Shown in pieces: positions 54,008-55,879 of a stretch of 64,000 nt of DNA. Numbering within the stretch: the stretch's first letter is position 1; every line of letters begins with the position of its first letter. Position numbers and translations under genes: made by a program. This DNA comes from an uncultured Victivallaceae bacterium (lineage in GTDB: Bacteria; Verrucomicrobiota; Lentisphaeria; Victivallales; Victivallaceae): NCBI GenBank assembly GCA_944392655.1, contig CALXXL010000009.1, positions 1-64,000 of the forward strand. Direction: 5' to 3'. A model generated the notes under the pieces. That model saw nothing but the letters and a program-made list of their open reading frames with translations, was not told the origin of the DNA and did no database searches.

Positions 54008-54907
54008 TTATTTCTTTACCTGGGTAAAGGATTCCAGCGCGTTTTGGGCCGTTTGACGCAGAAATTCCGCATCATCCGCCGCCAGACCCTCCGGACAGAA
54101 GGTTATTCCGGTCGCCGGACGGTCAAACAGAAACGCAAACCATAAACAGGCCTGCAAATACTGGCCACGGCGGTTCAGGTGATAGGCATCACGCTTTAAC
54201 TCCCACTCTCCATCCCGGTTTTTGCCCCACCAGATACCATTGACCAGAGAGCCCTGCTGATCCGGAAGCTCTGCCGGGTATTCCAGCGCGTTTACTTCCG
54301 CAATATCGTAAGGAGAAAATTTTACCGGCTGGTTTTTCCTTGCCAGATCTACCGCCAGTCCCGTCGGTATCTGACGGACATTGAGTTTCTCTGCTGCCAG
54401 ATTATAGGATTTGATAATATTGTCATACATCTCTGCCGGAGTTATCTGCCATTGCGCCAGCCGCGGATCGTCAAAACGGTAACTCCAGGTTTGCTGAAGC
54501 ACAATCTCTGCCGCCGGAGCGTATTTATGAACGTATTCCGCCAGATTTTCCAGGTAGGGATAGTAAGAGTCTGCCTGCCAGCTGAATGGACTGGCCTGTT
54601 GCAGGGTCACAACATCCCACTCCTCCGACGTAAGCATTTCACGGAGGTTCTTCCCCTTATACGGCTTTAACTCCGGCTCGCTTTCCGAACGCTCCGCCAA
54701 CTCCCAGTGACGTTGCAGCGAACAACCCGGCAGATTCGCCCGTTCAATAAGCAGCGGACACCCCGCATTTTCCGCAATCGATGGAAGATAAACAAAAACA
54801 CTGTCGGCAAAACTGTTGCCGATCGTCAGCACTTTCAGCTCTTTTGCCGATAAATTTATTCCTGTCAGCATGATCGCTCCCAAAAATATCTGAAGAATAC
54901 GTTTCAT
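54008..54907 (-). CDS. DUF4886 SGNH-hydrolase-like exported protein
   Basis: The 299-aa protein has a signal peptide and the GNSFADS block of SGNH esterases (nucleophile Ser in TIGNSF), with DAYHLNRRGQY near residue 245 supplying the Asp and His. These proteins are mostly carbohydrate O-acetyl or acyl esterases of Bacteroidota and PVC bacteria. Here the gene precedes an ABC exporter. It begins 44 bp downstream of a promoter-preceded structured RNA, so its leader may contain a regulatory RNA. Confidence 0.8.
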   Translation of the reverse strand: MKRILQIFLGAIMLTGINLSAKELKVLTIGNSFADSVFVYLPSIAENAGCPLLIERANLPGCSLQRHWELAERSESEPELKPYKGKNLREMLTSEEWDVVTLQQASPFSWQADSYYPYLENLAEYVHKYAPAAEIVLQQTWSYRFDDPRLAQWQITPAEMYDNIIKSYNLAAEKLNVRQIPTGLAVDLARKNQPVKFSPYDIAEVNALEYPAELPDQQGSLVNGIWWGKNRDGEWELKRDAYHLNRRGQYLQACLWFAFLFDRPATGITFCPEGLAADDAEFLRQTAQNALESFTQVKK

Positions 54908-54950
54908 TGTCGCTCCTCAAAATGAAAAACAGATTTTACCGCGAAGAAAA

Positions 54951-55043
54951 GAGAGCAGGCATTATAAACTCTACTACTGATTGACTACAATAAGGACTTG
55001 CGTCCCCGATGCAAATATTGTTCAGAGATTAACCTGCTCTCTG
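54951..55043 (-). ncRNA. Candidate 93-nt structured RNA of unknown class
   Basis: Read on the minus strand, AGAGAGCAGG (5' arm) and CCTGCTCTCT (3' arm) form a perfect 10-bp closing stem. Inside are CTCT/AGAG extension pairs, a 6-bp ACAATA/TATTGT stem and, at its tip, GGAC-GCAA-GTCC with a GNRA loop, plus a separate arm near AGTCAATCAGTAG. The 3' arm is followed by TTTTCTT. A near-consensus promoter ends 7 nt before the first base of the stem, so the transcript would start almost exactly there. It sits between a HAD gene and a DUF4886 gene. It lacks a tRNA T-loop, an SRP core and other motifs known to me. The structure is drawn by hand, not computed. Confidence 0.5.
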
Positions 55044-55050
55044 GTATTTA

Positions 55051-55079
55051 TTATAGCGTTACTTAATTGCTAAATCAAT
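55051..55079 (-). promoter_or_regulatory. Near-consensus promoter for the structured RNA
   Basis: On the minus strand: TTGATT (-35, at 55074-55079), 17-bp spacer, TATAAT (-10, at 55051-55056). The predicted start is within one to three bases of the RNA stem. Confidence 0.7.
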
Positions 55080-55081
55080 AG

Positions 55082-55879
55082 CTAATCCAAAACTTTTGCC
55101 AATATATTTTGCAAATCACCCAGATTCGGCACCGCAAGATCAGGATCGACTCCGGATTGATTCGGCTCGGCATGATCCGTTACCTGTACCGCTATGGCGT
55201 GGGCATTCAAACCAAGTTTGACGTCCGTATAAAGACGGTCGCCAATCATCATGGTTTCCGCAGTGGAGAGTCCGAAACGAGCCGCGGCAAGTTTCAGCAT
55301 CTCAGGATCCGGCTTGCCAAGCACCTTTATGCTTTTGCCGGTAGCTTTTTCCAGACAGCAGACAAATGCTCCGCAGTCGGGCAGAAAAGTCGGCTGGTCC
55401 GTCGGACAGAATGGATCCGGATGGGTCGCAAACGCAGGTACATCACGGCTGATGAAGTAGGCCGCACGGCAGAGCCGTTCATAACAGAGCGTACGGTCAA
55501 ACGCTACTATTACTGCTTGAGGATCTTCTGATTCAATCTCAAAACCGGCTTTGCGGAACTCTTCCTGCACCGTCGGTACCGCCAATGCATAGATACGTTT
55601 TATCTCAGGATGATGCGCTTTCAGATAGTCAATAGTGAAGTCTGTGGAAATATAAAACTCATCCGGAGCCGCAGCAATCCCCATCCTGTTTAGCTTTTCC
55701 ACATAATCAGATAAACTGTATGACGAGTTGTTGGATAAAAACAGATAATGTATGCCATGCTGTTTCAGAAAATTCAGAAACGGCATGGTGGTGGGAAACA
55801 GCGTTTTACCCTTATAAATCGTGCCGTCCATATCAAGACAGACCAGCTTTAACCCTTTAAGGCGTTCTTCAATATTCAT
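55082..55879 (-). CDS. HAD-superfamily hydrolase, NagD/HAD-IIA type
   Basis: The 265-aa protein has the catalytic LDMDGT near residue 17, the NagD-type FLSNNSS in motif II, and MMIGDRLYTDVKLG as motif IV. The order and cap type place it in subfamily IIA, phosphatases of sugar phosphates or nucleotides. It is last in a six-gene minus-strand operon starting with LPS-core genes and ends 2 bp before the promoter of the structured RNA. Confidence 0.85.
   Translation of the reverse strand: MNIEERLKGLKLVCLDMDGTIYKGKTLFPTTMPFLNFLKQHGIHYLFLSNNSSYSLSDYVEKLNRMGIAAAPDEFYISTDFTIDYLKAHHPEIKRIYALAVPTVQEEFRKAGFEIESEDPQAVIVAFDRTLCYERLCRAAYFISRDVPAFATHPDPFCPTDQPTFLPDCGAFVCCLEKATGKSIKVLGKPDPEMLKLAAARFGLSTAETMMIGDRLYTDVKLGLNAHAIAVQVTDHAEPNQSGVDPDLAVPNLGDLQNILAKVLD

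Follow-up and report, generated by a model that had tools for sequence, protein, structure and literature searches.

The window, that is, the whole 64,000-nt stretch analysed (contig CALXXL010000009.1 of an uncultured Victivallaceae bacterium), carries on its minus strand a small-RNA gene between a HAD-hydrolase gene (55082-55879) and a DUF4886 gene (54008-54907). The DUF4886 gene is on the same strand as the RNA and starts 42 nt beyond it. Read 5' to 3' on that strand, the promoter of the RNA gene (55050-55078) consists of TTGATT (55078-55073), a 17-nt spacer and TATAAT (55055-55050), followed after 7 nt by AGAGAGCAGG (55042-55033), the 5' arm of a perfect 10-bp outer closing stem, P1. The partner arm, CCTGCTCTCT (54959-54950, minus strand), is separated from the first by 73 nt, and a terminator-like T-rich run lies beyond it. 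These elements had been described in an earlier reading of the window, made from the letters alone (hereafter, the sequence-only reading), and all are present as it gave them, except that one T of the T-rich run was counted twice. Given the placement of the promoter upstream of P1, we take the RNA to begin with the 5' arm of P1 and to finish at the T-run that follows the 3' arm, a length of 93 nt (54950-55042, minus strand). With a covariance model built from homologues, the match covers 54944-55042, tail included, scores 88.8 bits, and is the sole match within the source genome.

The 93-nt RNA folds at -35.7 kcal/mol, compared to -19.7 kcal/mol for shuffled sequences (z = -4.7; none of the 200 shuffles was as good). 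Inside P1, the CTCT/AGAG pairs of the sequence-only reading form a five-bp inner closing stem, P2, with CUCUG as the 5' arm (55023-55027) and UAGAG as the 3' arm (54969-54973), at the edge of a large central bubble whose 5' strand is AACAAUAUUUGCAUC (55008-55022), containing a conserved GAAC. The GGAC-GCAA-GTCC hairpin is likewise found, and two G-U pairs extend it to a short apical stem of six bp, P3 (GGGGAC, 55002-55007; GUCCUU, 54992-54997; base 55007 facing 54992), closed by the GNRA loop GCAA (54998-55001), in the place of which many relatives carry UCUUUU. The class-wide plan reads: P1 of 10 bp, a small asymmetric loop, P2 of 4–7 bp, the large bubble, P3 of 6 bp and the loop GCAA or UCUUUU. 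The three helices stack into a rod, in contrast to the branched molecule proposed earlier. Although the additional 6-bp stem of that proposal (ACAATA/TATTGT) is a possible pairing in the window, the minimum-energy fold pairs this region differently and few homologues keep the stem intact, so that it is no general feature.

When 100 relatives were searched with the plain DNA sequence, about 31 gave a clear match, one in each genome. Covariance model R1 detected the RNA in 118 of the 137 genomes of the window's order (57 of the 61 good ones), and the broader model R2 in 171 of 198 Lentisphaeria genomes from more than 20 families, nearly always as a single copy. Over a phylum-wide sample, R2 gave 115 matches, all inside the class Lentisphaeria, and none in about 256 genomes outside the class (figure inferred). 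Among named records, an exact pattern match occurs under the titles Lentisphaerae, Lentisphaeria and Victivallales and in two contigs labelled Kiritimatiellota, which look like records of the window's order (G077 and G071) under another label. Fifteen genomes of the class without a match were searched again with lax filters and gave weak matches only. Two fairly complete ones (G003 and G191) are without a clear match; assembly gaps may explain some of the missing cases, not all. A mobile repeat or MITE was ruled out by the single copy in the source genome and the usual one copy per genome elsewhere.

The homologues carry the structure. Across 57 sequences, 15 of the 20 pairs show changes on both sides and 95.3% of the cells are paired, in alignments that were model-fitted to the structure and are thereby biased towards pairing; none of 500 shuffles reached any of the covariation measures, and sliding the partners by one to three columns lowered the pairing to 39–62%. 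All three helices covary strongly. In P1, every pair except one varies on both sides (94–100% of the cells paired); in P3, four of the six pairs do so (99% paired). Compensatory changes are visible by eye, in P3 from GGGGCC/GGCCUU to AAAGCU/AGCUUU and GGGCUC/GAGCUU, and in P1 from AGAAAGCAGG to AGGAAACAGG, with the partners matching. The 5' arm of P2 is more constant, with CUC and then G in 98–100% of 115 homologues; its 3' arm is CAGAG in most homologues outside the window's order. Most homologues have an apical loop of 4–6 nt on the 6-bp P3 and a T-run after P1. That the fold is a chance foldback beside a promoter-like sequence has nothing in its favour once homologues, their covariation and the class-wide occurrence are known; we count it as ruled out, with a negligible residual probability. 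It is near certain that this is a real gene for a real structured RNA, present class-wide.

The predicted RNA lengths run from 83 to 103 nt (median 91), leaving out three members in which the apical stem is enlarged. L036, L084 and L085, from three genomes of the family to which the source genome belongs, have an extended apical P3 region (up to about 45 nt), which shows that its length is free to vary.

Promoter-like sites were scored by their matches to TTGACA/TATAAT over 12 positions. A site with at least eight matches lies at the right distance upstream of P1 in 90 of 115 homologues, against 18% of shuffles. The neighbouring genes differ at nearly every locus and are often on the other strand. 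The sequence-only reading had entertained, as its alternative, a leader element of the DUF4886-ABC exporter operon. A leader or attenuator of these genes would suit the short same-strand distance to the DUF4886 gene and the HAD-RNA-DUF4886-ABC order, which is kept in one same-genus genome only. At all other loci, the neighbours differ, often on the opposite strand, which refutes any general role of this kind; the leader alternative fails because, throughout the class, the RNA keeps a conserved promoter while its neighbours change, and we consider it extremely unlikely. These same observations strongly support the interpretation preferred in the sequence-only reading, a free small RNA that has a promoter and an end of its own. 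There is no obvious promoter between the RNA and the DUF4886-ABC genes (54908-54949, minus strand), and read-through from the RNA gene may feed these genes in this genus.

The RNA had been called a member of an unrecognised class and set apart from 6S RNA, among others. An Rfam search of the window, suggested at the time as a check, found no known family either at the gathering threshold or at E ≤ 10, and 20 loci of the class gave no match with the Rfam 6S models, RF00013 included, at E ≤ 1. As far as Rfam searches go, the statement holds; by its anatomy and its distribution, however, the RNA looks like a reduced 6S RNA. Bacterial small SRP RNA (RF00169) was rejected, as it had been from the sequence, since the SRP RNA of the source genome is found elsewhere, on contig 5.

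6S RNA, about 180 nt long and with a conserved rod structure, is described as present in nearly all bacteria, where it acts as a decoy for RNA polymerase by imitating an open promoter. RF00013 detected it in 147 of 289 genomes of the phylum, all outside Lentisphaeria (147 of about 189 non-class genomes). It found none in the about 100 Lentisphaeria genomes of the same sample and none in 100 relatives of the window's order; in the source genome, its best match reached 12 bits (E 4.7). Canonical 6S RNA and the Lentisphaeria RNA are mutually exclusive, although the swap amounts to one event on the tree, not to many independent ones. The model of the short 6S-Flavo RNA (RF01685) had no match in the window or in the 20 class loci, nor in 60 class genomes, where the control search was also without a match and hence there is no positive control. 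In the reverse direction, R2 run with filters off on canonical 6S loci found nothing at the right place. As the 6S models miss the RNA and R2 misses the canonical loci, no sequence-level link ties the RNA to canonical 6S RNA, and a convergent take-over of the 6S job may have occurred instead of common descent.

The Lentisphaeria RNA has the rod of a 6S RNA, with a closing stem (P1 and P2), a large central bubble and an apical stem (P3), each helix backed by covariation. Its 3' bubble strand also holds a -10-like element, Y-A-N-N-K-U, starting exactly at the apical fork. In the window, the element is U-A-U-U-G-U (54987-54992, minus strand): its first base is still paired, as the last one to be so in P3, A54991 follows, and U54987 ends the element. 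Among 75 alignment rows, Y stands at -12 in 74, A at -11 in all 75 and U at -7 in 71; YANNNU occurs in 70 of them, against 4% by chance. Outside the window's order, A is present in 42 of 42 rows and U in 41 of 42, and the majority of these rows had no part in training the model. The promoter equivalents, T-12, A-11 and T-7, are the bases of most weight to sigma, and melting begins there. The element matches C130-A131-C-C-U-U135 at the same fork of E. coli 6S RNA, and about 26 of 28 6S RNAs from sister classes have CACYY- there (CACCUC, CACCUU or CACUUU). Positions 131-136 of E. coli 6S RNA have been discussed as a -10-like region (PMC8876501).

The opposite strand of the bubble carries CUCUGAAC, and a product RNA (pRNA) starting GUUC is therefore predicted. 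Counting from the fork places the predicted start at the C of GAAC (+1/+2), in the window opposite C55020, with A55019 before it; for this putative start, A is found at -1 in 92 and C at +1 in 75 of 115 homologues. A conserved adenine just upstream of the pRNA start has been reported in known 6S RNAs (PMC8414754), and the pRNA of B. subtilis 6S-1, GUUCGGUCAAAACUA, shares the GUUC start with the one predicted here (PMC12005410). The predicted pRNA is without the GG at positions 4-6 that is typical of other pRNAs. CUCUG(A) beside the bubble, with CAGAG opposite, is common to the Lentisphaeria RNA and several canonical 6S RNAs of sister classes, in the same place. When the RNA was folded without its 5' 23 nt, in imitation of pRNA binding, no single new helix appeared class-wide, while a UGCA/UGUA pairing next to P3 recurs in several members. 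In the window, the two segments would be 54985-54991 and 55010-55016 of the minus strand; once the 5' strand is occupied, their pairing could lengthen P3, and the closing of the bubble might help release.

A conserved and unpaired 5' bubble strand in a free-standing gene with its own promoter is also what a trans-acting base-pairing sRNA would show, the single-stranded GAACAAUAUUUGCAUC serving as a seed against mRNAs. Such an sRNA leaves unpredicted the two invariant bases, A and U, that lie across the bubble right at the fork, and the absence of canonical 6S RNA in just Lentisphaeria; moreover, the supposed seed drifts outside the order (e.g., GUCAAAUAAUCGCUUC) while the helix plan stays. We hold this explanation to be improbable.

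Because distribution, 3' bubble-strand element, inner closing helix and template strand converge, the Lentisphaeria RNA is very probably the functional 6S equivalent of the class, shrunk to its working core and expected to bind RNA polymerase. A structured RNA of some ribonucleoprotein, either a scaffold or another polymerase-binding RNA (e.g., an Ms1 analogue), that merely resembles 6S RNA would agree with the fact that no sequence model ties the RNA to 6S, yet the 6S-like fork motif, the P2 motif and the exclusive distribution would then all be coincidences, and we give this reading little credence. Less far-fetched, albeit still unlikely, is an independently evolved promoter mimic free of a -35 region, not a shrunken canonical 6S RNA, that took over the 6S job in the whole class; here, sigma would read the -10 element and the short flanking helices alone, and run-off of the pRNA at the 5' end would be part of release.

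As a 6S equivalent, the RNA would be made as a separate transcript, from a promoter of its own. P1 and P2 would mimic the DNA duplex downstream of the start site, the central bubble the melted promoter DNA and P3 the first turn of the upstream duplex, while the 3' bubble strand would present Y-A-N-N-K-U to sigma as a -10 element, its A and last U corresponding to the bases that sigma captures in promoter DNA. The RNA would bind the housekeeping RNA polymerase holoenzyme and withhold it from genes. Once NTPs return, the polymerase would start at the C of GAAC and, with the 5' arm of P2 as template, copy the 5' strand into a predicted pRNA, 5'-GUUCAGAGAUUAACCUGCU..., which could reach 23 nt at the longest before the enzyme runs off the 5' end of the RNA; in the source genome, it is predicted to begin 5'-GUUCAGAG. 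The pRNA would open P2 and then P1, freeing the enzyme. The literature searched yielded no expression, polymerase-binding or pRNA data for this RNA.

With canonical 6S RNA (RF00013; E. coli ssrS, B. subtilis 6S-1), the Lentisphaeria RNA shares the closing stem, central bubble and apical stem, an own promoter, usually one copy, and the A just upstream of the (predicted) pRNA start. Unlike it, the RNA has about half the usual length (83–103 nt versus about 160–200), no -35-like region in an extended apical arm and no usual hairpin in the 3' bubble strand. Having neither a -35-like arm nor a match to an Rfam 6S model, it would be a new variant and not a filed member of the family. It resembles 6S78 in having a central bubble, two short arms and no -35 region; 6S78 is a laboratory construct, whereas the Lentisphaeria RNA is natural and class-wide. 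This artificial 78-nt core of B. subtilis 6S-1 is bound by sigma-A polymerase, about tenfold more weakly, templates a 14/15-mer pRNA and is released, run-off being possible (PMC8876501). In E. coli 6S RNA, truncation of the apical (-35-like) arm abolished polymerase binding (PMC8876501), and the Lentisphaeria enzyme would therefore need to be of the tolerant kind. 6S-Flavo RNA of Bacteroidetes is also short and was published as missed by existing homology searches (PMC2864571). With a 108-position model already catalogued for it, a small 6S RNA is not categorically new; its model and that of the Lentisphaeria RNA, compared as models and not as folds, showed no match. Ms1 RNA is a 6S-like RNA of actinobacteria, a group in which 6S RNA is mostly not found, and binds RNA polymerase (PMC9130861). 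It differs from the Lentisphaeria RNA in its much larger size, in its anatomy and in its binding partner, the core polymerase.

If the 6S reading is true, a class whose RNA has a bubble and two short arms only would be the natural counterpart of laboratory-truncated 6S RNA; it would reveal which parts of a promoter mimic suffice and provide a compact RNA for structural work. It would also supply Lentisphaeria, whose RNAs have received little study, with the housekeeping RNA that had been missing there. The covariance model can be used by annotators.

Extra copies occur in some members of the class: in tandem in G033 (L107, contig 1, 367908-368184) and in L138 (135-232 and 241-337), and as six copies over several contigs in G139 (L152, L157, L160 and L161). 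These multi-copy genomes resemble those of bacteria with two 6S RNAs. Near the second copy of genome G149 lies an Acido-Lenti-1 RNA (RF01687, 44 bits; L156:33-78), and in three genomes at the class level, a tRNA gene is located at most a few hundred bases away from the RNA (L140:23-104, L145:464-547 and L149:393-475).
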